Positions 640 to 29,089 of a stretch of 64,000 bases of DNA are shown here, in pieces (the stretch's first letter is position 1; each line of letters begins with the position of its first letter). The stretch is from the NCBI RefSeq assembly GCF_036231945.1, contig NZ_CP109599.1, forward strand, positions 1,550,001 through 1,614,000. The letters are read 5' to 3'. The DNA comes from Streptomyces sp. NBC_01429. GTDB taxonomy: Bacteria; Actinomycetota; Actinomycetes; Streptomycetales; Streptomycetaceae. Both the position numbers and the translations under genes were made by a program. The notes beneath the pieces are model-generated. The model saw only the letters and a program-made list of their open reading frames with translations. It was not told the DNA's origin and did no database searches.

Positions 640-1047
640 TCAGCCCTCGTCCGGCGCCAGCCGCAGCGAGATGCTGTTGATGCAGTACCGCTGGTCCGTC
701 GGGGTCGCGTAGCCCTCGCCCTCGAAGACGTGCCCCAGGTGGGAGCCGCAGCGGGCGCAGCGCACCTCGACCCGGCGCATGCCGTGGGAGTTGTCCTCGA
801 TCAGCTCGACCGCGTCGGTGTCCTTCGGGTCGTAGAAGGACGGCCAGCCGCAGTGCGACTCGAACTTCGTGTCGGAGCGGAAGAGGTCCGCGCCGCACGC
901 GCGGCAGGAGTAGACCCCGGTCGTCTTCGTGTCCGTGTACTCACCGACGAAGGCGGGCTCGGTGCCTGCCTTGCGGAGCACCTGGTACTCCGCGGGCGAC
1001 AGCTCCGCGCGCCACTGCTCGTCCGGCTTGTCGATGTCGTACGGCAT
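640..1047 (-). CDS. msrB: Peptide-methionine (R)-S-oxide reductase
   Basis: Reduces the R-epimer of methionine sulfoxide in oxidised proteins, a cytoplasmic repair reaction using thioredoxin. The 135-residue product has the full MsrB layout. Two CxxC zinc pairs are present (C48/C51 in CRAC and C97/C100 in CARC). The HCGWPSF block is at 65-71, GHVF at 105-108, and the catalytic cysteine is C122 in RYCINS. C66 is a possible resolving cysteine. The length is normal for a stand-alone MsrB. The start lies 10 bp after the murC stop, so the two genes are probably cotranscribed. The family assignment is secure. Confidence 0.97.
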   Translation of the reverse strand: MPYDIDKPDEQWRAELSPAEYQVLRKAGTEPAFVGEYTDTKTTGVYSCRACGADLFRSDTKFESHCGWPSFYDPKDTDAVELIEDNSHGMRRVEVRCARCGSHLGHVFEGEGYATPTDQRYCINSISLRLAPDEG

Positions 1048-10293: not shown

Positions 10294-11043
10294 GTGAGCA
10301 GCGACAGCACCACCGACAGCCCTTCCCGGTCCGAAGGGACCACCCGTGACGAGGCACCGCAGTTCGTGCTGCCCCTGGTCGTACGGATCGAGAAGCCCGC
10401 TCCCCCGGCCCGCACCGACGCGCTGGAGACGGCGGCCCGCGCCGTGCTCGCGATGCTCTCCGACGAGCGGTCGCTGGGCGAGGGCGAGACCGAGGGTGAA
10501 TGGGCCCGCGCGATCCGGGAGTGGCAGGACGCCCGGATCCGCAAGGTGGTACGGCGGGCGCGCGGCGCGGAGTGGCGCCGCGCGACCGCGCTCCCCGGCC
10601 TCACGCTGAGCGGCACGGGCGCGGACACGGAGACGTCGTCCGCCGCGGAGGTACGCGTCTTCCCGCCCGTCCCGCTCGACGGCTGGCCCAAGGAGCTGGC
10701 CAAGCTCCAGGTCTCCGGCACCGAACTCGACGACCCCGAGCCGCCGCCCGCCCCCGCCCCCGACGTCCCGGTCCTGTGGCTGAGCCCCGACCTCGGCATG
10801 ACGGCGGGCAAAGCCATGGCGCAGGTGGGACACGGCGCCCAACTCCTGTGGTGGGAACTGCCGGACAAGGAACGCGAGGCGTGGCGTGCGGCGGGCTTCC
10901 CCCTCGCCGTACGCACCGCGTCCCCGGCGCACTGGCGCCGACTCATCTCCAGCGAGGTGCCGTTGGTGCGGGACGCGGGCTTCACGGAGATCGCCCCCGG
11001 GCTCACGGTCGCGGCCGAGTGGCGGTCGCCCGCGGCTCCCTAG
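10294..11043 (+). CDS. PTH2-type peptidyl-tRNA hydrolase-like protein
   Basis: A 249-residue protein. Its C-terminal third (about 158-246) matches the PTH2 fold: LWLSPDLGMTAGKAMAQVGHGAQL carries the conserved GK..AQ.GHA pattern, followed by the VPLVRDAGFTEI segment of PTH2. The N-terminal ~150 residues are an actinobacterial extension with no family I recognise. PTH2 enzymes cleave peptidyl-tRNA; whether this fused form does is unproven, since bacteria normally use the unrelated Pth. The GTG start lacks a Shine-Dalgarno; CAGACT a few bases upstream could be a leaderless -10. Its TAG stop overlaps the TAG of the convergent dioxygenase gene. Confidence 0.83.
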   Translation: MSSDSTTDSPSRSEGTTRDEAPQFVLPLVVRIEKPAPPARTDALETAARAVLAMLSDERSLGEGETEGEWARAIREWQDARIRKVVRRARGAEWRRATALPGLTLSGTGADTETSSAAEVRVFPPVPLDGWPKELAKLQVSGTELDDPEPPPAPAPDVPVLWLSPDLGMTAGKAMAQVGHGAQLLWWELPDKEREAWRAAGFPLAVRTASPAHWRRLISSEVPLVRDAGFTEIAPGLTVAAEWRSPAAP

Positions 11044-11906
11044 GCTTTCAGCGGGCCGCCGTTGATCGCGATGCGCCTGCCGTAGCGCGTGTGCGGGTAG
11101 TAGTCGTAGGTCGCGTGGTGCTGGACGCAGCGGTTGTCCCAGAAGACCAGCGTCCGCGGGGTCCAGCGGACGCGGCAGGTGAGCATCGGGCGCTGCGCGA
11201 CGACGGTGAACAGCATCCGCAGCAGCGCGTCGCTCTCGTCCTCGGAGAGCTGGGGGATCCTCGCGGTGTACGCCTGGTTGACGTAGAGGATCGGACGGCC
11301 GGTCTCGGGGTGGCGCACCACCACCGGGTGTTCGTTGACCGGTATCTCGTAGTTCGGCGGCACCGTGTAGCCGCGGAAGCTGTGCTTCCCGTCGTGGATG
11401 CCGGTCAGACCGTCGAGGAGGCCGCGCATCGTGGGTGACAGCATCTCGTACGCCAGGTGCATGTTGGCGAACAGGGTGTCACCCCCGCTGTCGCCCTCCG
11501 GCGTCTCGGTGATGTACAGCATCGAGCCGAGGGAGGGTTCGGCGTCCGCCGTGCCGTCGGCGTGCCAGGCGTTGCCCGCGACGTTGCCGGCCGCCGGGCT
11601 GGTCCTGATCTCCAGGACGTACGGGTCGCCCTCCGGCGGAGGGTTGACCGGGCGCAGGTCGCCGAAGTGGCCGGCGAAGCGCTTGTGGTCGTCCACGGTG
11701 ATCTCCTGGTCGCGGAAGACCAGGACGTGGTGGTCGAGGAAGGCGGTCCCGATCTCGGCCAGTTGCGTGTCGGTGATCCGGGCGAGGTCGACTCCGGAGA
11801 CCTCGGCGCCGATGACGGGCGTCACGGGAGCCACGGAGATCTCCCGGTAGTCTCGCGGCGGCCTGGTGGTGATGGCCTTCAGCGCGTCCAGCTCGTAGGG
11901 CTCCAT
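11040..11906 (-). CDS. TauD/TfdA-family Fe(II)/2-oxoglutarate dioxygenase
   Basis: A 288-residue non-heme iron oxygenase. The facial triad is visible: H115 and D117 in AWHADGT, and H263 in RCVQHHATYDY. R277/R278 near the end probably bind the 2-oxoglutarate carboxylate. The length is normal for TauD. AGGAG precedes the ATG at 11906. It starts 64 bp after the NRPS stop on the same strand, so it is very likely cotranscribed and may hydroxylate or desaturate the NRPS-bound amino acid or the released product. Taurine catabolism is an alternative role, but no sulfonate transporter is nearby. Its stop overlaps that of the convergent PTH2-like gene. Confidence 0.9.
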   Translation of the reverse strand: MEPYELDALKAITTRPPRDYREISVAPVTPVIGAEVSGVDLARITDTQLAEIGTAFLDHHVLVFRDQEITVDDHKRFAGHFGDLRPVNPPPEGDPYVLEIRTSPAAGNVAGNAWHADGTADAEPSLGSMLYITETPEGDSGGDTLFANMHLAYEMLSPTMRGLLDGLTGIHDGKHSFRGYTVPPNYEIPVNEHPVVVRHPETGRPILYVNQAYTARIPQLSEDESDALLRMLFTVVAQRPMLTCRVRWTPRTLVFWDNRCVQHHATYDYYPHTRYGRRIAINGGPLKA

Positions 11907-11970: not shown

Positions 11971-14900
11971 TCATGCCGTTGGCGGGGGCGTGGCGTCGAG
12001 TCGTTCGAACCGGCCGGTGATCAGATCGGCGATGAACGGGACGCTCTCGCCTTCCAGCACATCCCAGTGGCCGCCCTTGACCCGCTCGACGGTGAGGCCG
12101 CCGCGGGCCCGCCGGTGCCAGAAGCCGCGCAGTTCCTCGTCCGCCGCGGCCGCCTCGTCGGGGTCGGGCGCGTCCGATTCGGCCTGTACGAGCAGCAGCG
12201 GGGCGTCCGTCGGGCCGGGCGTGTGGTCGCGGGCCGCGACGCGGTGGTGGTTGTAGATCTGGAAGTACCGGTCGATCTGCGCGTCGTCTATGCCGGGGTA
12301 CATGCCGTTGAAGCGGACGAGTTTCTCGCGGAACTCCGCCGCACCGACCGGCTCGAAGTCCGCGCGCCCGGCCGTGTCGTCGGTGCCGTGCGTGTCGAGC
12401 AGGACCACGGCGGTACGCCGGTGGCCGGCCCGGGCGAGCCTGCGTCCCATCTCGTGCGCGACCAGGCCGCCGAAGGAGAGCCCGACCAGCACCAGGGACT
12501 CGTCGGGGCCGGGCCGTACGAGCGACAGGTAGTGCTCCGCCATGGCCTCCACCGACGGCAGCGGACGCTCACCGGCGTTGATCCCCGGCGCCTGCACTCC
12601 CTGGACGCCGGTCTCCTCCGGCAGAGCCGTGGCCAGCGGCAGGTAGCAGAACGCCGTGCCGCCGGCGGGATGGACACACACCACGCGCCGGCCGTCGCGC
12701 GCCGGGCGGAACTCGATCAGCGCCTCGTCCGTCTCCGCCGGTGTCCTCGTGCGAAGGCGCGCCGCGAGCCGTTCGATCGTGGGGTGCTGGAGGATGTCGC
12801 GGATCGGCAGGGCCGTGCCGAAGTGCTCGTGGACGAGGTGGGAGACCTTGATGGCCGCCAGGGAGGTGCCGCCGACCGCGAAGAAGTCGTCCGTGATGCC
12901 GATGCCGGGATGCACCAGTACCTGCCGCCAGATCCGGTACAGCGACATCTCGACGCGGTCGCGGGGGGCGTGGGTGTTGACCTGGGCGGGCAGCGCCTCC
13001 CTGGCCCGCTCCAGCAGGGCCCGGCGGTCCAGCTTGCCGCTGCGGTTGAGCGGCAGTCGCGGGAACTCGGCGAACAGCGAGGGGATCATGTAGTCCGGCA
13101 GGCGGTCGGCCAGCGCGGCGCGCCACTCGTGGGACCCCCGGGCGGGCCCCTCGGTGCGGCCGATGCCCGCCACGAGGCGCGGTTCCCCGGCCGGGTCGCG
13201 GTCGGCGAGCACGACGGCCTCGGTGACGCCGGGCAGCTCGCGCAGAGCGGCGGCGACCTCCCCGGGCTCGATACGGAAGCCGCGCAGCTTGACCTGGTCG
13301 TCGAGGCGGCCGGCGAACGCGTAGTTCCCGTCGCGGAGCCGGCGTGCCAGGTCTCCGGTGCGGTAGACCCGTTCACCGGGGAGGAAGGGGTCGGGCAGGA
13401 AGCGCTCGTCGGTCAGCTCGGGCCGGTTCAGGTATCCCCGTGCCACGCCGGCGCCGCCGATGAACACCTCCCCCGCGACACCGGGCGGTACGGGGGCGCC
13501 GCGCCGGTCCAGCAGGTAGATACGGGTGTTGTCCACGGGGCGGCCGATCGGGCAGCGCCTGTCCAGGGCCCGGGGATCGTCGTAGGTGATGCTGTAGACG
13601 GTGGTCTCGGTCGGCCCGTACACGTAGCGGACGGACAGCTCCGGCAGGACCTCGCGCATCCGGTGCAGCGCCTTCTCGGGCAGGGGCTCAGCGCCCGTGG
13701 CGAGCTGCCGCAGCGCCAGTCCCGCCAGCCGGGACGCGGGGTCCTCGTCGATCCACGTGACATACGCCGCGGGCAGCCAGGCGTGCACGATCCGGTGCTC
13801 GCGCAGCCAGCCCATCAGCGCCCCGGGGTCGCCGCGCAGGTCCTCGGGGACCAGGTGCAGCACGGCGCCCGTGGTGAGGGGGAGGAAGAGTTCGTGGACG
13901 GAGGCGTCGAAACCGAAGCTCGCCCACGCGGAGGACGCCTCGCCGGGGATGGCGTCGTGGCGGGCCAGCCAGGTGCCGATCAGGTTGGCGACGTTGCCAT
14001 GGGTGACGGCCACGCCCTTGGGGCGCCCCGTGGAGCCCGAGGTGTAGATCACGTAGGCGAGATCGGAGGGGCGGCTCGTGACGCCGGGCGGCTCCTCGCA
14101 CGCCGCCTCGGCCTCCACCTCCCGCAACGACGGCCAGGGGCCGGGCGGTGCCGCGCGGTCGCTGAGGATCACGGCGGGGGCGGCCTCCTCCACGATGACG
14201 CGCAGCCGTCCGGCGGGCTGGCCGGGATCCAGCGGAAGGTATCCGGCGCCCGCCTTCAGCACGCCCCAGATGCCCACCAGGAACTCCGCGGAGCGTCCGC
14301 AGTGCAGGCCGACGACCTGGCCGGGCCGCACGCCCCGGGCGATGAGGGCGTGGGCGAGCCGGTTGGCGCGCCGGTCGAGGGCGGCGTAGGTCAGCTCCGT
14401 ACCGCCGCCCACCACGGCGGGGGCGTCGGGCCGTACCCGGACCTGCTCGCGGAAGCGGTCGAGCGGGCCGGCGGCGGGCTCGGGGGTGATCCGGCCGCGG
14501 CCTTCGGCCAGCAGCCCGCGGCGTTCGTCCTCGTCGAGCAGTTCGAGGTCGTCGATGCTCCGGCCGGGATCGGCGGCGAGCTGCGCCAGCAGGCGTATCA
14601 GGTAGCGGATGTACGCGTGGGCCGTCTCCTCGTCGAACAGCGCGTCGGGGTAGTCCAGGTAGCCGCTGACGCCGCCGTCCTCCCTCGCCAGGGAGAGGGC
14701 CAGGTCGAACATGGCCGATCCGCCGCCGAACTCCAGCGGCTCGACGTCGGCGTCGGGCAGCTCCAGCATGCCCTTGTAGGAGACCACGCCCCACGACAGC
14801 ATCGTCTGGAAGAGCGGGGTGTGGGCCGGGCTGCGCGGCGGGTTGACCGCGCTCACCACCCGTTCCAGCGGCAGCTGCTGATGGTTCAGGGCCGCCCGCA

Positions 14901-15903
14901 GGGACGTGTGGACCCGGCGCAGCGCCTCGGTGCCGCTCAGGCCGCCGGAGAGGTCGACGCGCAGGGCGAGGGAGTTGACGAAGAAGCCGATCACGTCGGC
15001 GGCGTCGGGGCCGGTGCGGCCGGACACGGGGACGCCGACGACGAGGTCCTCCTCGCCGGTGAGGCGGTGCAGGAGGGTGTACCAGCCGGTCAGCAGGGCG
15101 GTGAACAGCGTGGCCCCCTCGCCGTGGGCCAGCGCCCGCAGGTCCGAGGTGACCGAGGGGTCGAGGCGGACCGCGACCCGGCCGCCGGCGTAGCTCTGCT
15201 CGGGCGGACGCGGCCGGTCCGTGGGCAGGGCGAGCAGCGGCGGGGCGCCGGCCAGGGCTTCCCGCCAGTAGCGGGTCTGGGCCTCGGCCTCGTCGCCCTC
15301 GGCCCAGTCCAGATGGCGGCGGGTGTGGGCGGCGAACGGGGTGGGGAGCGGGGGCAGCGGGTCGGCCGCGCCGCGCCGCAGGCCCGCGTAGCTGGCGCCG
15401 AGATCACGCATCATGATCTCCACGGACGTCCCGTCGAAGACGGTGTGGTGCACCGTCACCAGGAGCGCGTGGTGCGCGGGGCCGAGGAGGGCCAGCCGGC
15501 CCCGGGCCAGCGGTCCGCGGGCCAGGTCGAAGGGGGTTTCCCGCTCCTGGCGTTGCAGGCCGGCGAGGCGTGCCTCCGGATCGGCCGCGTCGCTCAGGTC
15601 GACCACGGTCAGGGCGAACCCGGATCCCGGTGGGTCGATCCGCTGCCGGGCCTCGCCGCCGACGCGGGCGAACCGGGTCCGCAGCGACTCCTGCCGGTCG
15701 GCCACCGCGGCCAGGGCCCGGGACAGGGTCGCGCGGTCCAGTGGCCCGCGCACGCGGAAGGCCATCAGGCAGTTGTACGCCGTGCTGGCGTCCTCCGACT
15801 GGGAGATGGCCCACAGCCGCTGCTGTCCGAAGGACAGCGGGAGGAGCTGTTCGGCGTCCTGGGGGTCGTCCGACGGGCCGCGGGGGGTGGTCATCGCCGA
15901 CAA
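11971..15903 (-). CDS. Single-module nonribosomal peptide synthetase (C-A-T-TE)
   Basis: A 1310-residue one-module NRPS. The condensation domain (about 20-450) has an intact HHTVFDG at 152-158. The adenylation domain (about 480-960) shows YTSGSTGRPKG near 620, GFDASVHELF near 664, YGPTETT at 762-768 and the A10 Lys K957 in GKLDR. The carrier domain has GGTS with phosphopantetheine Ser1014. The C-terminal thioesterase has GLSFG with Ser1143 and a late GGHWDV His. My hand alignment reads the specificity residues as D-A-H-W-A-G-V-V-Y-K; I cannot name a substrate. TTG at 15903 has GAGAGGA 5 nt upstream; ATG at 15894 is the alternative start. A TauD gene follows. No MbtH gene or exporter is adjacent. 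Confidence 0.93.
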   Translation of the reverse strand: MSAMTTPRGPSDDPQDAEQLLPLSFGQQRLWAISQSEDASTAYNCLMAFRVRGPLDRATLSRALAAVADRQESLRTRFARVGGEARQRIDPPGSGFALTVVDLSDAADPEARLAGLQRQERETPFDLARGPLARGRLALLGPAHHALLVTVHHTVFDGTSVEIMMRDLGASYAGLRRGAADPLPPLPTPFAAHTRRHLDWAEGDEAEAQTRYWREALAGAPPLLALPTDRPRPPEQSYAGGRVAVRLDPSVTSDLRALAHGEGATLFTALLTGWYTLLHRLTGEEDLVVGVPVSGRTGPDAADVIGFFVNSLALRVDLSGGLSGTEALRRVHTSLRAALNHQQLPLERVVSAVNPPRSPAHTPLFQTMLSWGVVSYKGMLELPDADVEPLEFGGGSAMFDLALSLAREDGGVSGYLDYPDALFDEETAHAYIRYLIRLLAQLAADPGRSIDDLELLDEDERRGLLAEGRGRITPEPAAGPLDRFREQVRVRPDAPAVVGGGTELTYAALDRRANRLAHALIARGVRPGQVVGLHCGRSAEFLVGIWGVLKAGAGYLPLDPGQPAGRLRVIVEEAAPAVILSDRAAPPGPWPSLREVEAEAACEEPPGVTSRPSDLAYVIYTSGSTGRPKGVAVTHGNVANLIGTWLARHDAIPGEASSAWASFGFDASVHELFLPLTTGAVLHLVPEDLRGDPGALMGWLREHRIVHAWLPAAYVTWIDEDPASRLAGLALRQLATGAEPLPEKALHRMREVLPELSVRYVYGPTETTVYSITYDDPRALDRRCPIGRPVDNTRIYLLDRRGAPVPPGVAGEVFIGGAGVARGYLNRPELTDERFLPDPFLPGERVYRTGDLARRLRDGNYAFAGRLDDQVKLRGFRIEPGEVAAALRELPGVTEAVVLADRDPAGEPRLVAGIGRTEGPARGSHEWRAALADRLPDYMIPSLFAEFPRLPLNRSGKLDRRALLERAREALPAQVNTHAPRDRVEMSLYRIWRQVLVHPGIGITDDFFAVGGTSLAAIKVSHLVHEHFGTALPIRDILQHPTIERLAARLRTRTPAETDEALIEFRPARDGRRVVCVHPAGGTAFCYLPLATALPEETGVQGVQAPGINAGERPLPSVEAMAEHYLSLVRPGPDESLVLVGLSFGGLVAHEMGRRLARAGHRRTAVVLLDTHGTDDTAGRADFEPVGAAEFREKLVRFNGMYPGIDDAQIDRYFQIYNHHRVAARDHTPGPTDAPLLLVQAESDAPDPDEAAAADEELRGFWHRRARGGLTVERVKGGHWDVLEGESVPFIADLITGRFERLDATPPPTA

Positions 15904-16015: not shown

Positions 16016-16267
16016 TGGCCACTCGGGGCACAACTCGCCCGCGGAACGCCGAGTTGGCCGGATCCGGGCTGTCGCGGAGAGGCCGGGCAGGGGTGACCGG
16101 GAGAGCGCGCCGGGGCCGGTCAGGAGGGCCGGTGATCATCCGGCGCCACGGGACTGAACGCTCCCGCCCTCCCGTACGTATCTCCCTGTACCGCCACGTA
16201 GGTTGAACGGCCGGTCGGCCCAGTGGTTGATTCAGCGGTGTCACAATTCGGTTCGGGAGGCAGCACA

Positions 16268-17062
16268 TTGTTGCGACGCATCAACGGTACGGCGCTCATC
16301 ATCGCGGCATTGGTCGCGACAGTCGCGGCGTTGGCCTTCCCCGTGTGGTCGTACGCCGATCGCTCCGGGACCGGGCAGGCGAACATCGCCGCGTCGACGG
16401 TCTCGACCCAGTGGGGGCCGCTGACCGCGTCCGATCGCGATCTGCTGGTGAAGGTACGGCTGGCCGGGCTCTGGGAGCTGCCGGCCGGACAGCAGGCGAT
16501 CGACCGGGCGCCCAGCCAGGCGATCAAGGACTGCGGTGACCACCTGGTCGTCGGACACACCGACCTGGACAAGCGTGCCATCTCCGTGGCCGCGAAACTC
16601 GGGGTCGAGCTGCCGAACCAGCCGACCGAACAGCAGCAGGGCTGGCTGCGGGAGCTGTCGGAGGCACAGGGCGACGAGTACGAACGGAAGTTCGCGAATC
16701 TGCTGCGCAACGCGCACGGCAAGGTCTTCTCGGCCATCGCGCTGGTCCGGCACACCACCAGGAACGAACTGATCCGGCAGCTGGCGAGTGACGCCAACGT
16801 CACCGTGCTCGACCACATCACCATGCTGGAGGCCACCGGCAAGGTCGACTTCGACGCCCTCGCCAACGAGGCCGCCGGCACCCTGACCGCGAGCCCGAGC
16901 GGCCCGCCGGCGCCCAACGGCAACCTGCCGCCGGCCGCCGTGCCCGTCGAGCCGACCGGGAACGAGACGTTCACCTCCGAGCCCTCGACGCAGCCCGGCG
17001 CGCCGACGGCGATCAACACCAACCGGCCCGACCCGGAGGAGGCGCCGACGCCCTCCCCGTGA
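16268..17062 (+). CDS. DUF4142 family secreted or membrane-anchored protein
   Basis: A 264-residue protein with an N-terminal hydrophobic segment (NGTALIIAALVATVAALAFP, roughly residues 6-25) serving as signal or anchor. A helical DUF4142 domain follows (about 45-200), with LTASDRDLLVKVRLAGLWELPAG at its start and an HVxTDHxxI-like pattern replaced by VLDHITMLEATGKVD at its end. The tail (about 205-264) is Pro/Thr/Ala-rich and probably disordered. TTG at 16268 (or 16271) is preferred because GGGAGG ends 7 nt upstream; an in-frame GTG at 16223 lacks a ribosome site. The role of DUF4142 is unknown. A strong terminator follows. Confidence 0.83.
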   Translation: MLRRINGTALIIAALVATVAALAFPVWSYADRSGTGQANIAASTVSTQWGPLTASDRDLLVKVRLAGLWELPAGQQAIDRAPSQAIKDCGDHLVVGHTDLDKRAISVAAKLGVELPNQPTEQQQGWLRELSEAQGDEYERKFANLLRNAHGKVFSAIALVRHTTRNELIRQLASDANVTVLDHITMLEATGKVDFDALANEAAGTLTASPSGPPAPNGNLPPAAVPVEPTGNETFTSEPSTQPGAPTAINTNRPDPEEAPTPSP

Positions 17063-17268: not shown

Positions 17269-18630
17269 ATGAACGGCACACCGCGCGGGAGTACGGCACG
17301 GCTGGGAGTCGGCATCGGGTGGCGGCCGGAGATCGCCGGCGCGGTGGAGTCGCTGCCCGGTATCGACTGGGTCGAGGCCGTCGCGGAGAACCTCTGTCCC
17401 GACCGGCTGCCCGACTCGCTGGTACGGCTGCGCGAACGCGGCGTCACGGTCGTCCCGCACGGGGTCTCGCTGGGGCTCGGCGGCGCGGACCGGCCGGACG
17501 CGCGACGGCTGGCGGATCTGGCGGAGCGGGCCGAGGCGCTCGGTTCGCCGCTGGTCACCGAGCACATCGCGTTCGTACGGGCGGGCGGTGAGCGCACCGC
17601 TTCGCCGCTGATCGAGGCCGGACATCTGCTGCCGGTGCCGCGCACCCGGGACGCGCTGCGGGTGCTCTGCGAGAACGTGCGGATCGCCCAGGACTCGCTG
17701 CCCGTGCCGCTGGCGGTGGAGAACATCGCCGCCCTGATCTCCTGGCCGGACGAGGAGATGAGCGAGGGCCGCTTCCTGGCGGAGCTGGTGGAACGCACCG
17801 GTGTCCGGCTGCTCATCGATGTGGCCAACCTGCACACCAACCACGTGAACCGGGGCGAGGACCCGGCCCGGGCGCTGGACGAGCTGCCGGTCGAGGCCAT
17901 CGCGTACGTCCATGTCGCGGGCGGGGTCGAGCGCGACGGCGTCTGGCACGACACGCACGCCCACCCGGTGTCCCGGCCCGTCCTCGACGTGCTGGCGGAG
18001 CTGCGCTCGCGGGTGGACCCGCCGGGGGTGCTGCTGGAGCGCGACGACGACTTCCCGCCCGCGGCGGAGCTGGCCGGGGAGCTGACGGCCATCCGCGAGA
18101 CGATCCGGATGACGGAGGCGAAGGGCGCGGCGCGTGCCGCCCGTACGGAGGCGGTGCCCGCCGAGGGCGCGGCCGACGGCGAAGGCGAAGTCAGTGAGGA
18201 CGGCGAGGACGGCTCCACCGACCCCGCCCGCCAGCGCCTCGCCCTCGCCGAGACGTCCCTGCTCTCCGCCCTGGTCGCCGGTACGCCCGTCCCCGAGGGG
18301 TTCGACCGCAGGCGGCTGCGGGTCCAGAGCCGCGCCCTCTCCGTGAAGCGCGCCGGTGTCGTCGCCAAGGTCGCCCCCGAGCTGCCGGAGATCCTCGGCG
18401 CCGGCTACCGCTCGGCGTTCCTCGGCTACGCCGCGAGCCGCCCCATGCGCGCCGGTTACCGCCGCGACGCGCTCGACTTCGCCGAACACCTCCTGGTCGC
18501 CGGGCATCCCGAGAGCCACGCGGCCCGGCGGCGCCTGTCCCTGTGGTGGCAGGAGCGCGCCGGAGCGCGACCGCCCCGCCGGGCGACCCGTCTCGTCCGG
18601 GTGGCGCGTGCCGCGCTCGCGGGAAGGTGA
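17269..18630 (+). CDS. DUF692/MNIO enzyme fused to a partner-like C-terminal domain
   Basis: Residues 10-285 form a TIM-barrel of the DUF692 multinuclear non-heme iron oxidase (MNIO) family, whose known members (MbnB, TglH, BufB) modify cysteine or other residues of peptides. Likely metal ligands are H64 (PHGVSLG), H99 (TEHIAF), E151 (ENI), D184 and H189 (DVANLH), H215 (YVHVAGG), D228/H230 (WHDTHAH) and E257 (LLERDDD). A Glu/Ala-rich linker at 285-320 leads to residues 320-453. That segment reads like the HvfC/BufC (DUF2063) partner domain: [10 protein letters not shown], a [10 protein letters not shown] helix and [17 protein letters not shown] lies before the ATG. No precursor peptide gene is visible next to it. 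Confidence 0.85.
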
Positions 18631-18824
18631 CACCTCCCGTCGACGATGTCGCCGTACTGGCGCTCCACGCGGCCACAGCCCTCTCGTCCCGCGCGCTCCG
18701 CACCGGCGTGCTCGTGACGCGCCGGGACGCGCCCCGGCGTGACCGCCGGGCGCATAGGGGTCATTGGCCCCGACACCGTCCACCGGTCCTTGCTTCGTCC
18801 CCGTGCGCTGCCGACCCTCTGTTC

Positions 18825-18846
18825 TGCGGTTGATCCCACAACCGCA
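18825..18846 (+). promoter_or_regulatory. Inverted repeat just upstream of the peptidase gene
   Basis: TGCGGTTG (18825-18832) and CAACCGCA (18839-18846) form a perfect 8-bp inverted repeat with a 6-nt spacer, ending 4 nt before the AAGGGAA ribosome site. It could be an operator or a leader hairpin. Confidence 0.45.
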
Positions 18847-18863
18847 CGCACGAAGGGAACGCG

Positions 18864-20525
18864 ATGAGAGCAGTTGTGAAGTGCGGGGCTCTGACCGCCC
18901 TCGGCTCCCTGGTCCTGTCGGGGCTCGTCGCCGCCCCCGCGGACGGCGCGACCGCCGGGGCCGGTTCGGCCGCGGACCTGTACGGCGCCGTGCGGGCCCG
19001 CGCCCACGAGACCCGGGGTGTGGCCCGCGCGGCCGAGCGGGCCGGTAGGGCCGGGATCGCGTTCGGTGCCTGTCCCGAGGCCGAGTCGCTGCCCGCCCCC
19101 GTCACCTGCGGCACCGTCGAGGTCCCCCTCGACTACGCGGAGCCCGACGGCCGGAAGATCTCCCTCACCGTCAGCCGCGTCGCGGCGAGCGGTCCGGCCG
19201 GGGAGCGGCAGGGCGCGCTGGTCTTCAACCCCGGTGGCCCCGGCGCCTCCAGCATGTACTTCCCGCTGGCAGCCGAGCTGCCCGAGTGGAAGCGGATCGC
19301 CGGGGCGTACGACATCGTGGGCTACGCGCCGCGCGGGGTCGGCCGCTCGGCGCCGCTCTCCTGCGAGGACCCGGCGGACACCCTGAAGGCCCCCACCCAG
19401 GCCCCGGTGCACCCCTCCGAGTCGTACAAGCGCGAGCGGATCGCGGAGGCCAAGGCGTACGCGCAGGGCTGCGCCGACCACGCGGGGGCGGCGCTCCCGC
19501 ACTACAACTCGCTCAACAACGCCCGCGATCTGGACGTGCTGCGCGCCGCCCTCGGCGAGCAGAAGCTGACGTATCTCGGCGCCTCGTACGGCACCTACTT
19601 CGGCGCGCTGTACGCGACGCTCTTCCCGTCCCACGTACGCCGGATGGTCTTCGACTCGGCGGTCGACCCCGATCCCCGGCAGATCTGGTACCGCAACAAC
19701 CTCGATCAGTCGGCCGCGTTCGAGCGGCGCTGGACGGACTTCCTCACCTGGATCGCCAAGCACGACAGGACGTACCACCTGGGCGGCGACATCGAAGAGG
19801 TGCGGAAGAACTACGAGAAGATGCGCGCCGGGGTCACCCACGAGCCGGCCGGCGGGAAGGTCGGGCCCGGTCAGCTCCAGGGCGTGATGCTCTCCGCCGG
19901 TTACTACGACGACTACTGGGCGATCCGCGCCACCGCGCTCTCCGAGTACGTCAAGGGCAACCCCAAGCCGCTGATCGAGCAGGCCACGCCCCGGCCCGAG
20001 GCCGCCGCCGACAGCGAGAACGGCAACGCCGTGTACACCGCCGTCGAGTGCAACGACGCGCCGTGGCCGACGGACTGGCGGATCTGGGACCGTGACAACA
20101 CCGAACTCGCGCGCACCGCGCCGTTCGAGACCTGGGACAACGCCTTCATGAATCTGCCGTGCGCCTACTGGCCCGCGCCCCGGCAGACCCCGCTCGACGT
20201 CGGCACCCTGCCGGGCGAGCTGCCCCCGATCCTGATCCTGGCGGCGGAACGGGACGCGGCGACCCCGTACGCCGGTGCCCTGGAGCTTCAGCGGCGGCTG
20301 GCGGGCGCGGTGCTGGTGACCGAGAGGGACGCGGGGACACACGGGGTCGCCGGCGGCTCCAACGCCTGTATCGACACCTATCTGGAGGACTACCTGCTGC
20401 TCGGAAAGGCGCCGGTGCGGCACGCGGAGTGCGCGCCCCACCCGGAACCGAACCCGGTCTCGCTCGAACGGGTCAGCAAGAGCGCCGACCCGCACAGAGG
20501 GCTCGGTCCGGCGCCGCGCGTCTGA
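18864..20525 (+). CDS. Secreted alpha/beta-hydrolase, tripeptidyl aminopeptidase-like
   Basis: A 553-residue exported serine hydrolase of the Streptomyces Tap/SlpD/SlpE type, which trims N-terminal tripeptides or acts as a mycelium-associated peptidase. A Sec-type signal peptide covers about residues 1-29. The oxyanion segment is NPGGPGASS, the nucleophile elbow GASYGTYFG, the acid AERDAATPY and the histidine AGTHGV. The nucleophile, Asp and His order and the C-terminal lid-like insertion fit this family. The ATG at 18864 has AAGGGAA upstream. Its 3' end overlaps the convergent glycosyltransferase gene by 53 bp. Confidence 0.92.
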   Translation: MRAVVKCGALTALGSLVLSGLVAAPADGATAGAGSAADLYGAVRARAHETRGVARAAERAGRAGIAFGACPEAESLPAPVTCGTVEVPLDYAEPDGRKISLTVSRVAASGPAGERQGALVFNPGGPGASSMYFPLAAELPEWKRIAGAYDIVGYAPRGVGRSAPLSCEDPADTLKAPTQAPVHPSESYKRERIAEAKAYAQGCADHAGAALPHYNSLNNARDLDVLRAALGEQKLTYLGASYGTYFGALYATLFPSHVRRMVFDSAVDPDPRQIWYRNNLDQSAAFERRWTDFLTWIAKHDRTYHLGGDIEEVRKNYEKMRAGVTHEPAGGKVGPGQLQGVMLSAGYYDDYWAIRATALSEYVKGNPKPLIEQATPRPEAAADSENGNAVYTAVECNDAPWPTDWRIWDRDNTELARTAPFETWDNAFMNLPCAYWPAPRQTPLDVGTLPGELPPILILAAERDAATPYAGALELQRRLAGAVLVTERDAGTHGVAGGSNACIDTYLEDYLLLGKAPVRHAECAPHPEPNPVSLERVSKSADPHRGLGPAPRV

Positions 20526-22459: not shown

Positions 22460-23176
22460 CTACGCGAGCCCGGCCACCAGATCCGCCACCGACTTGCGGC
22501 GGCCGGTGTAGAACGGCACCTCTTCCCGAACGTACAGCCGCGCCTGGGAGGCGCGCAGATGACGCATCAGGTCGACGATCCGGTACAGCTCGTCGGCCTC
22601 GAAGGCCAGGATCCACTCGTAGTCGCCGAGCGAGAAGGATGCCACAGTGTTGGCCCGTACGTCCGGGTAACCCCTGGCCATCTTCCCGTGGTCCGCGAGC
22701 ATCTTGCGCCGGTCCTCGTCGGGGAGCAGGTACCAGTCGTAGGAGCGGACGAAGGGGTAGACGCTGACATAGTCGCGGGGCGTCTCGTCGGCCAGGAAGG
22801 CCGGCACGTGCGACTTGTTGAACTCGGCGGGGCGGTGCAGCGCCATGTTCGACCAGACGGGCTCCAGCGCGCGGCCGAGCCGGGTGCGCCGGAACCGGTT
22901 GTACGCGTCCTGGAGTTCGTCCGCGGTCTCCGCGTGCCACCAGATCATGACGTCGGCGTCGGCGCGCAGCCCGGACACGTCGTACGTGCCGCGTACGGTG
23001 ATGTCCTTGGCGGCGAGCTGGTCGAACAGCTCCTGGACCTCGTCCGCGTAGCCGGACCGGTCCTCGGGCAGCACCTCGCGCAGTTTGAAGACGGACCACA
23101 GCGTGTAGCGGATGACCTCGTTGAGGTCCTTGGCCTTCTTGCCCGCGTTCGGGGTCTTCTCTGGAGCAGCAGTCAT
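22460..23176 (-). CDS. hemQ: Coproheme decarboxylase (HemQ/ChdC)
   Basis: Chlorite-dismutase-family enzyme that converts coproheme to heme b with hydrogen peroxide, the last step of the coproporphyrin-dependent pathway. The 238-residue length is typical. Landmarks are [18 protein letters not shown] (about 110-127), [16 protein letters not shown] (136-151) with candidate catalytic tyrosine, and H163 in [10 protein letters not shown] as the proximal heme ligand. The start ATG is 23176. It lies 4 bp after the hemY stop, so the two are cotranscribed. The gap to the glycosyltransferase start (22036-22459) holds no convincing gene. Confidence 0.95.
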
Positions 23177-23180
23177 ACGG

Positions 23181-24629
23181 CTATTCTCCCGCGCCCCGGC
23201 CGGTGCCCCGCGCCAGGGTCGACGTGGCGATGATCTCGTCCGCCGCGCGCCGGGCGCTCGCGACACAGGCAGGGATGCCGACGCCGTCGTAGGCCGCGCC
23301 GCAGACCCGCAGACCGGGCAGCGCCGCGACGGCCCCGCGGACCCGCGCGACCCGGTCGGGGTGGCCGACGGGGTACTGCGGCAGGCCGTCGGTCCACCGG
23401 GTCACCTCGGTGGCCACCGGCTTGGCGGCGAGCCCGAACGCGTCCCCCAGGTCGGTCAGGGAGACGTCGACCAGTTCGCCGTCCTCGCGCTGGAGTTGCT
23501 CCTCCTCGCCGTAGCGGCCGACGGAGGTGCGCAGCACGAAGAGGCCGGGCGCGGCGTCCGCGACCCAGCCCCACTTGCGGGTGGAGAAGGTCGCCGCCTT
23601 GATGGTGCGGCCGTCGACCGGCGGTACGAGGAAGCCGCTGCCCCCGGGCAGCGCGGCGCCGAGGTCGTCCTGGCGGAAGGCCATGGTGATCAGCGCCATC
23701 GAGGCGTACTCGACCTCGGCGAGTTCGGCGGCGGCGGCCGGGGACTCCTCGGAGAGCAGCACGGAGGCGGACCAGGCGGGGGTCGCGAGGATCACCCCGT
23801 CGGCGCTCAGCACCCGCCGGTCGGTGCGCACGCGCCAGCCGTCGGAGGCGCGGCTCAGGCCGAGTACGGGCGTCTCCAGGAGGATGTCGCCGCCGCCCGC
23901 CCGCACGGCGTCGGCGACGGCGCCGGGCAGCCGGCCCACGCCGCCCTCGATCCCGGCGAAGACGGCGCCGGTGCCGGGGTTGCGGGCGGCCTTCGCCTGG
24001 ACGTCGCGGACGGCGGCGAGCAGGGAGTCATGGGTTTTTACGGCGTCGAAGAGCTGCGGTACGGCCGCCCGCATGGACAGGCGGTACGCGTCGCCCGCGT
24101 AGACCCCGCCGAGCAGCGGCTCCACCAGCCGGTCGACGACCTCGCGGCCGAGCCGGCGCGCCACATGGCCACCGACCGAGACGTCGTCACCGACCTCGGT
24201 GGGCGGCAGTCCGGGTTCCCCGGCGATCCGGGCGAGCCCCTCGTCGGAGAGCAGCCCGGCGAGTGCGGCGGGGTCGCCCGGTACGCCCATCACATGGCCC
24301 TTGGGCATGGGCCGCAGCGCGCCGCGCGTCCAGACCGAGGCGGTGGTCGCGGTCGGCGGCTGGAGCAGCGCGCCGAGCCCGACGGCCCCGGCCAGCTCGA
24401 CGGCCTCGGGCCGGCGCGCGAGCATCGACTCGGCGCCGAGGTCGACGGGGACGCCCTCGATCTCGCCCGTGCGCAGCTTTCCGCCGAGCCGGTCGGTGGC
24501 CTCCAGCAGCGTCACCCGTACCCCGGTGCCCAGCAGCCGGTGCGCGGCGGCGAGACCGGCGATGCCGCCCCCGATGACGACGACATGGCCGGGACGCGTA
24601 TCCACGTGCTGTGCGCTCGACGACTCCAT
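23181..24629 (-). CDS. hemY: Coproporphyrinogen III (protoporphyrinogen) oxidase
   Basis: FAD-dependent oxidase of the HemG/HemY/CgoX family. Given the adjacent hemQ, it most likely oxidises coproporphyrinogen III to coproporphyrin III. The 482-residue protein begins with the dinucleotide fold [17 protein letters not shown] (about 15-31) and E42 of [12 protein letters not shown]. The C-terminal FAD segment is [26 protein letters not shown]. The frame is open far upstream but runs antisense through the DUF4349 gene, so the ATG at 24629 is used. It is divergent from the DUF4349 gene with 157 bp between starts. Confidence 0.95.
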
Positions 24630-27243: not shown

Positions 27244-28308
27244 TCAGCGGGCCGTGCGCTCGTGCACGTACGCCACCAGCCGCGACAGCGCGTCCGGGTC
27301 CATGCTGGGCAGCACGCCGTGGCCGAGGTTGAAGACGTGGCCCTCAAGACCGGCCGCCGCCCGGAGCACCTCGTCGGCCTTGGTCTCCACGACCGACGGC
27401 GGGGCGAAGAGCACGGCCGGGTCCAGGTTGCCCTGGAGGGCCTTGCCGGGGCCGACCCTGCGGGCGGCCTCGTCGAGCGGGACGCGCCAGTCGACGCCGA
27501 CGACGTCCGCGCCCGCCTCGCCCATGGCGCCGAGCAGCTCGCCCGTACCGACGCCGAAGTGGATGCGCGGCACGCCGTACGCGGCGACCGCGTCGAAGAC
27601 CTTCGCCGAGGCGGGCTGGACGGAGCGGCGGTAGTCGGCGGGGGCCAGCGCGCCCACCCAGGAGTCGAACAGCTGGACGGCGCTCGCGCCCGCCTCGATC
27701 TGGACCTTGAGGAAGGCGGCGGTGATGTCGGCGAGCCGGTCCAGCAGGTCGGCCCAGAGCTGCGGGTCGCCGTACATCATGGCCTTGGTGTGCTCGTGGT
27801 TGCGGGACGGGCCGCCCTCCACGAGGTAGCTGGCGAGCGTGAACGGCGCGCCGGCGAAGCCGATGAGCGGGGTCTGACCCAGTTCGGCGGTGAGCAGGCC
27901 CATCGCCTCGGTGACGTACCAGACGTCGTCGGGGGTGAGGTCGCGCAGCCGGGCCAGGTCCGCGCGGGTGCGGATGGGCTCGGCGACGACGGGTCCGACG
28001 CCGGGCTTGATGTCGAGGTCGAGGCCGATCGCCTTGAGCGGGACGACGATGTCGCTGAAGTAGATCGCGGCGTCGACCTTGTGACGCCGTACCGGCTGGA
28101 GCGTGATCTCGGCGACCAGCTCGGGCCGCATGCAGGACTCCAGCATCGGAATCCCTTCGCGCACCTTCAGGTACTCCGGCAGCGAGCGCCCCGCCTGCCG
28201 CATGAACCAGACCGGCGTGTGCGGCACGGGTTCGCGCCTGCACGCCTTCATAAAGGCCGATTCGTACGTCTTCGTCTGCTGGCCCGAAGGGCGGTCAATG
28301 GCACTCAC
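27244..28308 (-). CDS. hemE: Uroporphyrinogen III decarboxylase
   Basis: Decarboxylates uroporphyrinogen III to coproporphyrinogen III, the entry to the branch completed by hemY and hemQ. The 354-residue product carries [16 protein letters not shown] (about 32-47), the invariant arginine-rich substrate motif. It also has [16 protein letters not shown] with the catalytic Asp, [12 protein letters not shown], and [13 protein letters not shown] at the C-terminus. GTG at 28308 (then Ser-Ala-Ile-Asp) is the natural start; the frame upstream is not protein-like. It is divergent from the DUF3000 gene with 91 bp between starts, and separated from hemY-hemQ by two plus-strand genes. Confidence 0.96.
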
Positions 28309-28386
28309 GCCGAGAATCTTCGCACGCACGCGGAAGCCGCGGCCCCGGCCCGGGTGTCCCTCCCTGCGCGCGGCGCGGGTTCCGCC

Positions 28387-28400
28387 TACTCTTCCCCGCA
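28387..28400 (+). promoter_or_regulatory. Leaderless-type -10 for the DUF3000 gene
   Basis: TACTCT at 28387-28392 ends 7 nt before the ATG at 28400, and there is no Shine-Dalgarno. Confidence 0.5.
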
Positions 28401-29089
28401 TGGCTGCGGCTCAGGGACAGTTTTCCGATCATTCCAACGGCACCGAGGGAACAGGCGGCAAGGAGGGTGATTCCGTCCCGCCCGCGTTCCGTTCGGCGGT
28501 CGAGACCTTGCGGGCGGCGCGGCTGCGCCCGGAGATCGAGATCGACCCGACCCCGCCGCCGAAGCGGCTGGCGCCGTACGCGTACGCCCTGGAGGCGGCG
28601 GTCGTGGAGGGCGAGGACGACCTCGCCGACGGCCGGCTCATCCTGCTGCACGACCCCTCGGGCCACGACGCCTGGCAGGGCACCTTCCGGCTGGTCACGC
28701 TCGTACGGGCGGAGCTGGAGCCGGAGATGGCCGCCGACCCGCTGCTGCCCGAGGTGTGCTGGTCCTGGCTGACGGGCGCGCTGGAGGCGCGCGGGCTGTC
28801 CTACGGGGAGGCCAGCGGCACCGTCACCCGCGCCGGATCACACTATTTCGGGGGACTCGCCGAGCGCAGACCGGCGACCCAGATCGAGATCCGGGCGTCC
28901 TGGACTCCGCGCGAGGGGCTGGGCGGGGTGCCCGACTCGGCGGCGCACCTGGCGGCCTGGTGCGATCTGCTCTGCCAGATCGCGGGACTGCCGCCGCTCT
29001 CCGCCGGCACGGCGCCGGGCCCCGGCGAGACCGGAACGGGCGCGGGCGTGGTGTCGCTGCCGCAGCGGCGCGGCCCACAGGTGCCCTGA
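28400..29089 (+). CDS. DUF3000 family protein
   Basis: A 229-residue cytoplasmic protein conserved in actinobacteria, role unknown. The core (about 28-205) includes [42 protein letters not shown] and the highly conserved [25 protein letters not shown]. The N-terminal ~25 and C-terminal ~25 residues are low complexity. The ATG at 28400 appears leaderless. It lies between hemE and whiI, the order I recall for Streptomyces, and is divergent from hemE. Confidence 0.9.

Follow-up and report, generated by a model that had tools for sequence, protein, structure and literature searches.

A natural one-chain MNIO-partner fusion in Streptomyces and the deletion of its TIGR04222 neighbour gene in one strain

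The closest described systems are the TIGR04222-MNIO clusters of Actinomycetota, in which an MNIO gene lies beside a gene for a TIGR04222 membrane protein with a Gly/Ser/Cys-rich tail, and in which the PME-type 2 partner is without the DUF2063 signature (Antoine et al. 2025; PMC12452194). According to that survey, TIGR04222 proteins are proposed as MNIO substrates for a subset, more than a quarter of TIGR04222 proteins are without a C-proximal Cys, and a third of the TIGR04222 genomes are without MNIO genes. The HvfBC pair has an RRE-bearing partner, HvfC, on which the mixed-valent iron state depends, and a substrate with a Sec signal; a direct laboratory fusion of HvfB to HvfC was highly active (PMC13419390). 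TglHI comprises two chains whose substrate is TglA-Cys, with the C-terminal domain of TglI lying outside the interface (PMC10880893). In MovX, an extra domain fused to the MNIO enzyme, called a winged helix-turn-helix or an RRE, is thought to replace the partner (PMC12452194, PMC13419390).

Here we describe an MNIO gene of Streptomyces sp. NBC_01429 within a stretch of 64,000 nucleotides (64 kb; hereafter the window). A preliminary description had proposed that enzyme and partner-like domain are joined in one chain, and this is what we find: the N-terminal part matches PF05114 and the C-terminal domain is related to DUF2063. The locus resembles the TIGR04222-MNIO clusters in its actinomycete host and in a partner without the DUF2063 signature; it differs in that the partner is fused to the enzyme and in that, where those clusters have an adjacent TIGR04222 gene, the window has only a remnant. 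With HvfBC it shares an MNIO enzyme and a partner, joined in one chain in the laboratory construct, but that construct is artificial, whereas the fusion in the window is natural and has no predicted RRE strands. With TglHI it shares the nine iron-ligand positions, and residues 2-160 of the TglI chain are the top structural match of the fused domain. The plan of an MNIO enzyme with an extra fused domain recalls MovX, although the extra domain is DUF2063-like and helical here. A second kind of natural fusion occurs on plasmid p4 of Rhizobium bangladeshense, where one annotated CDS (WP_207604143.1; L217:3-1163, L251) carries both PF05114 and PF09836; unlike the window gene, it stands in a bufferin-type setting, with a DUF2282 gene before it and a DoxX gene after it, and its DUF2063 part scores above the cut-off. 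A literature search that covered few subscription papers found no earlier report of an MNIO-partner fusion.

The open reading frame of the fusion was confirmed (Table 1). PF05114 (MbnB/TglH/ChrH) matches its N-terminal part at 261.9 bits against a cut-off of 25, the single match to this family in the whole genome (one contig, 8.08 Mb), and the fusion protein was matched in 57 of 60 relatives from the same genus. A full-length AlphaFold2 model, built from 29 sequences, has a mean pLDDT of 85.6, and the best PDB matches of its MNIO domain are TglH (Foldseek E 1.1e-16), HS_1138 and MbnB (E 4.4e-13). In TglH, the ligands are His71, His107, Glu151, Asp184, His216 and Glu258 for Fe1/Fe2, and Asp184, Asn187, Asp229 and His231 for Fe3, as reported (PMC10880893). 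Their counterparts in the structural match alignment are H64, H99, E151, D184, H215 and E257 for Fe1/Fe2, and D184, N187, D228 and H230 for Fe3. All nine positions are retained, and they are invariant in the 111 of 111 fused proteins compared, near-copies included. A tri-iron site had been suggested beforehand as something for structure prediction to look for; ligand positions for Fe1/Fe2 and for a third iron are all present in the sequence. Among the named NCBIfam MNIO subfamilies (BufB, HvfB, ApyH, ChrH, MbnB) no curated cut-off is reached, the top score being 179 bits for MNIO_BufB against a cut-off of 310. By family and fold the protein is a genuine MNIO enzyme, predicted to bind iron. The MNIO domain is followed by a linker whose residues 292-316 have pLDDT below 50 and whose length and sequence vary among aligned relatives.

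Table 1. Features of the fusion locus and its surroundings in the window.
Feature	Position	Strand	Basis
DUF4142 protein, upstream neighbour in many relatives	16223..17062	+	Pfam
MNIO-partner fusion gene	17269..18630	+	open reading frame, 453 aa; PF05114; AlphaFold2 model; relatives
MNIO TIM-barrel domain, residues 13-278	17305..18102	+	Pfam, PDB matches, mapped ligands
Variable low-confidence linker, about residues 292-318	18142..18222	+	pLDDT, sequence and length variation
DUF2063-like helical partner domain, about residues 319-431, PME-type 2-like	18223..18561	+	model, PDB matches, hhalign, Pfam in homologues, MNIO context
5'-end remnant of deleted TIGR04222 (putative substrate) gene, start codon not preserved	18632..18734	+	ungapped alignment to L105
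Retained 3' flank of deleted gene, upstream region of hydrolase gene	18736..18863	+	alignment to L105
TAP-like alpha/beta hydrolase, frequent downstream neighbour	18864..20525	+	Pfam, synteny

The identity of the C-terminal part required several lines of comparison. A search with the DUF2063 profile, proposed with the preliminary description, gave a divided answer: the C-terminal 141 residues of the window protein itself gave no match at E<=1 to any family of Pfam or NCBIfam, PF09836 (DUF2063) included, while 13 of 49 homologues of the domain, scanned singly, match PF09836 (best E 2.5e-4), the next family being matched by 2 of the 49. A model of the isolated domain (49 sequences, mean pLDDT 88.2) is helical with zero strands, and both models show this part as helices only, with low confidence for the final ~20 residues. 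Foldseek returned 17 weak matches among 350,542 PDB chains, in which chains from the TglHI and MbnABC entries hold ranks 2 and 4 (E 5.8 and 7.0, probability 0.10); these we take to be TglI and MbnC, judging by their lengths and by which other chains of the same entries are the MNIO enzymes. The re-aligned list is led by the TglI chain (Z 6.1, rmsd 6.5, 122 aligned), with the MbnC chain second (Z 5.4, rmsd 3.6, 83 aligned) and an NF90-NF45 chain at Z 4.8, tied with MbnC in that list; a Z near 6 is by itself indecisive for helical domains. A PDB sequence search of the C-terminal part gave a response-regulator chain as its best match (E 0.44), which we judged to be chance.

Because few genomes of the phylum have DUF2063 (3 of 149 match it, 1 of them above the cut-off), proteins for a profile comparison were taken from plasmids, and all ten members of this set match PF09836. 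Against these, hhalign aligned 64 helical-core columns of the partner profile with a score of 24.7, which 0 of 500 column shuffles reached (mean 12.6, maximum 22.2; reversed control 15.6) under hhalign's own reproduced local setting; in an earlier control with other settings 2 of 200 shuffles were as high as the real score, and hhalign's own calibration gives the comparison a probability of 5.9%. Genome context provides evidence that is independent of structure and profile comparison. A profile of the domain matched 38 of 197 genomes of the class, 23 of them outside the genus, and at 15 of 15 loci examined outside Streptomyces (from 15 of those 23 genomes, the other 15 of 30 loci belonging to the window's genus) an MNIO frame lies directly upstream of the domain, overlapping or in frame with it.

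It is very improbable, on this evidence, that the C-terminal part is an unrelated helical extension: the window copy has no Pfam or NCBIfam match and the Foldseek E-values are weak, as such an extension would have it, but that reading has to contend with DUF2063 matches in more than a quarter of the homologues, a profile signal above all 500 shuffles, TglI and MbnC at the head of the structural list, an MNIO frame alongside at every locus examined, and separate partner genes directly 3' of MNIO in seven loci. Taking the homologue matches, the shuffled-profile signal, the structural list and the genome context together, we therefore regard the C-terminal ~115 residues as a predicted partner domain that is DUF2063-like and lies near PME-type 2 (PMC12452194). 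Its relationship to DUF2063 and TglI comes without a Pfam signature, and it is encoded directly after the MNIO part, as for PME-type 2; those partners are separate proteins, whereas this one is fused, and the PF09836 signature of PME-type 1 is absent from the window protein. The domain had earlier been likened to HvfC/BufC. The DUF2063 relationship behind that comparison stands, but the domain is not HvfC or BufC itself: it is without the Pfam signature, and the models, which are of low confidence over the last ~20 residues, have no β-strands at the position of the RRE wing, as would fit PME-type 2.

Among 121 loci compared, the partner is fused to the enzyme in 113, encoded by a separate gene in 7 (L071-L077) and not found in 1 (L079). 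The first 40 relatives were partly picked for lacking TIGR04222, and frequencies are therefore quoted only from 80 named Streptomyces loci. These were taken as the best 80 matches and so form a non-random sample, and some species occur in both collections; the fusion is present in 80 of 80. In all seven separate pairs, an ATG or GTG just 5' of the MNIO stop opens the partner frame, so that the two genes overlap by a few bases. A tree of MNIO domains from chosen rows gathers 36 of 38 fused rows in one group (support 93/81) and leaves the separate forms outside it. Two fused rows, L201 and L078, also lie outside the main group, L078 on a long branch, and the fusion trait needs two changes on this tree; a single fusion by bypass of the MNIO stop, plus either one more or a misplaced row, would fit. 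The most likely origin of the fusion would be an overlapping MNIO/partner gene pair of the kind that persists in some Streptomycetales. The survey reports many TIGR04222-MNIO clusters as apparently lacking partner genes (PMC12452194), and in Streptomyces the fusion accounts for such an absence.

The neighbourhood survey for a recurring TIGR04222-type protein, another check suggested at the outset, had a clear outcome. Of the 80 named loci, 59 have near the fusion gene, usually immediately 3' of it, a gene for a TIGR04222 membrane protein whose tail is rich in Gly, Ser and Cys; 9 others have only a TIGR04222 protein scored as tail-less, 6 have none (L141, one of these, borders an assembly gap) and 6 are interrupted by the end of a contig. 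Among all 121 loci, 5 end within the TIGR04222 gene and 4 end too early, the tail-less class of 13 rows includes two proteins just outside the tail rule (L071 with 3 Cys, L115 with 4 Cys in the last 90 residues), and L078, scored as having none, has a TIGR04222 gene upstream; L141 and L078 were left out of the ligand-conservation, dN/dS and trait-change analyses. The coupling to the fusion gene is tight, in that 67 of the 81 Cys-tailed reading frames in the 121 loci start no more than 20 nt from the fusion stop, as placed by tblastn. It is mainly for this reason that we consider the Cys-tailed TIGR04222 protein the likely, if putative, substrate of the fused enzyme in these relatives.

The TIGR04222 genes also vary among themselves. 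A second, shorter gene without the Cys tail is often found 3' of the Cys-tailed one (L069:10348-11130, L067, L068 and others), and some loci keep only the short tail-less form, preceded by a DUF4142 gene. At L141 (Streptomyces sp. AcH 505) the enzyme looks fused to the hydrolase, but a run of N after the partner domain makes this doubtful.

The preliminary description had seen no precursor near the gene in the window, and no reading frame with a Gly/Ser/Cys-rich tail passed our filter anywhere in the 64 kb. It is corrected on one point: the relatives carry a conserved candidate precursor next to the fusion, and in the window that gene has been deleted. The 103-nt stretch 18632-18734 aligns without gaps, at about 75 identical positions, to the start of the TIGR04222 gene of L105 (genome G264), the closest relative to keep it, and 0 of 1000 dinucleotide shuffles reach this score. 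With the more distant L126 and L107 as reference, one scoring scheme has 46 and 14 of 1000 shuffles as high as the real alignment, and the other has 913 and 885; the signal is clear against L105 only. From position 18736, the DNA aligns to L105 at +1032 to +1161 past the MNIO stop, with a score of 137, whereas the highest of 200 shuffles scored 41. Since a single base separates the remnant from this 3' flank, the alignments are best read as one deletion of about 930 nt, relative to L105, that left only ~100 nt from the 5' end of the TIGR04222 gene. The hydrolase gene starts at +234 past the fusion stop in the window. Where a single Cys-tailed TIGR04222 gene is present and the hydrolase was matched (21 loci), its start lies between +1107 and +1491; in TIGR04222-less rows in which the hydrolase was matched, it lies between +171 and +511 or, if a DUF4142 gene intervenes, at +1136 and +1537. 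Searches for a TIGR04222 gene anywhere in the 8.08-Mb genome, one of them without its own positive control, found none. In S. corynorhini (L125), the sister of the window strain, the gene is missing as well, and the spacing differs.

Two readings are left for the enzyme of this strain: it has a second substrate, or it is an orphan. A plain orphan would have lost its substrate recently and be functionless here, with decay still to come. The recognisable remnant and the near-seamless junction do point to a fairly recent loss in this lineage, and G264, whose enzyme is 85-86% identical, still has the TIGR04222 gene. Yet S. corynorhini also lacks the gene by genome search, while the MNIO-domain dN/dS between it and the window is 0.24, and larger TIGR04222-less groups hold similarly low values; we regard a plain orphan as a genuine possibility, though one with clearly less than an even chance.

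Candidates for another substrate were sought in the window and the genome. No DUF2282 bufferin was found in the genome. Twenty reading frames of at most 150 aa in the window pass a filter on Cys and GC3, of which one is a SelR-domain gene and the others, judged by eye, resemble frames that lie within or opposite to other genes; none was kept as a candidate. The DUF4142 protein was likewise set aside: its gene occurs upstream within 3 kb 53 times among the 121 loci, beside enzymes with and without TIGR04222, and no Cys column is present in at least 30% of rows.

Several other genes of the window were recorded. The SelR-domain gene (methionine sulfoxide reductase B type) lies at 640-1047 (-). 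A single-module NRPS with condensation, adenylation, carrier and thioesterase domains is encoded at 11971-15903 (-), and a TauD-family dioxygenase gene on the same strand at 11040-11906 (-). Genes for HemQ (22460-23266, -) and uroporphyrinogen decarboxylase (27244-28401, -), both of haem biosynthesis, lie near the fusion, and HemQ is found near it in many of the relatives examined.

The enzyme is kept widely where TIGR04222 is not found. In a sample of 392 genomes of the genus, 376 match the enzyme and 338 match TIGR04222 (both 331, enzyme only 45, TIGR04222 only 7, neither 9), where a few of the enzyme matches are fragments or remote and the TIGR04222 survey scored only 7 candidates per genome. 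Twelve genomes picked as TIGR04222-less were confirmed as such, 12 of 12, with all first-look candidates scored and the control G264 matching, and all 12 keep the fused enzyme. The iron-ligand positions are intact in every row without TIGR04222. In a single quick tree, built from 105 distinct fused proteins of which 97 were scored, presence of the adjacent TIGR04222 gene changes at least 8 times, a count that gives no direction of gain or loss, and clades of several species lack the gene.

Selection on the enzyme was compared by NG86, a simple method, on pairs with dS of 0.05-0.5. The median MNIO-domain dN/dS is 0.187 without a Cys-tailed neighbour (51 pairs) and 0.196 with one (979 pairs), where the pairs are not independent, part of each branch predates the TIGR04222 losses, and 12 rows of the group without a Cys tail do have a TIGR04222 neighbour, one scored as tail-less. 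By nearest neighbours, the medians are 0.213 without the Cys-tailed gene and 0.187 with it, and for the partner domain they are 0.387 and 0.330. Within these limits, the dN/dS values give no clear sign that the enzyme decays in the absence of its presumed substrate.

These data bear on the reading that selection has kept the enzyme after TIGR04222 loss for a second substrate elsewhere, or for a function that does not involve TIGR04222, the neighbour being one substrate among others. The 45 enzyme-only genomes and the 12 confirmed ones, the intact ligands, the low dN/dS without a Cys-tailed neighbour, the repeated trait changes and the multi-species clades without the gene all speak for it; the failure of DUF2282, of Cys-tailed reading frames in the window and of DUF4142 as candidates speaks against it, as do the limits of the dN/dS pairs, the slightly higher nearest-neighbour values and the slightly less constrained partner domain. 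We place this reading just short of an even chance. Since the enzyme looks maintained in genomes for which the TIGR04222 search was negative, its substrate may be distant, as the preliminary description had envisaged, or not of TIGR04222 type. A more specific form, which we put forward tentatively and hold at somewhat lower probability, is that of an enzyme conserved across the genus and acting on two or more types of substrate, for which the TIGR04222 neighbour is dispensable and repeatedly lost, while selection acts through another substrate that is encoded elsewhere or is not a TIGR04222 protein.

The explanation that we prefer, and consider quite probable, is that the gene encodes a natural one-chain MNIO holoenzyme that likely oxidises the Cys tail of its TIGR04222 neighbour, and that the cis-encoded substrate gene has been deleted in this strain. 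In this holoenzyme an iron TIM barrel with Fe1/Fe2 and a third site would be joined through a variable linker to a DUF2063-like helical partner domain, would bind two or three irons and, if catalytically active, would use O2 to oxidise Cys of the TIGR04222 tail. The partner domain would presumably maintain the active, mixed-valent form of the iron cluster, in the way that HvfC serves HvfB. Because no RRE-like β-wing is predicted, the substrate may be brought in by its folded TIGR04222 part and not by a leader peptide. The ~930-nt deletion leaves the enzyme of Streptomyces sp. NBC_01429 without a cis-encoded substrate.

A recent survey of MNIO enzymes leaves open which of them work alone (PMC12452194, 2025). 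In Streptomyces the partner is fused, not missing, and the system is therefore testable with one enzyme gene and one substrate gene. The fusion is a natural counterpart of the laboratory HvfBC fusion used for study of the iron cofactor. Genomes that have the enzyme but are without TIGR04222 are a place to seek a second class of MNIO substrate; if the two-substrate proposal is true, a one-chain MNIO enzyme without a leader-binding RRE wing would recognise its second substrate by a route other than that of known RiPP precursors.
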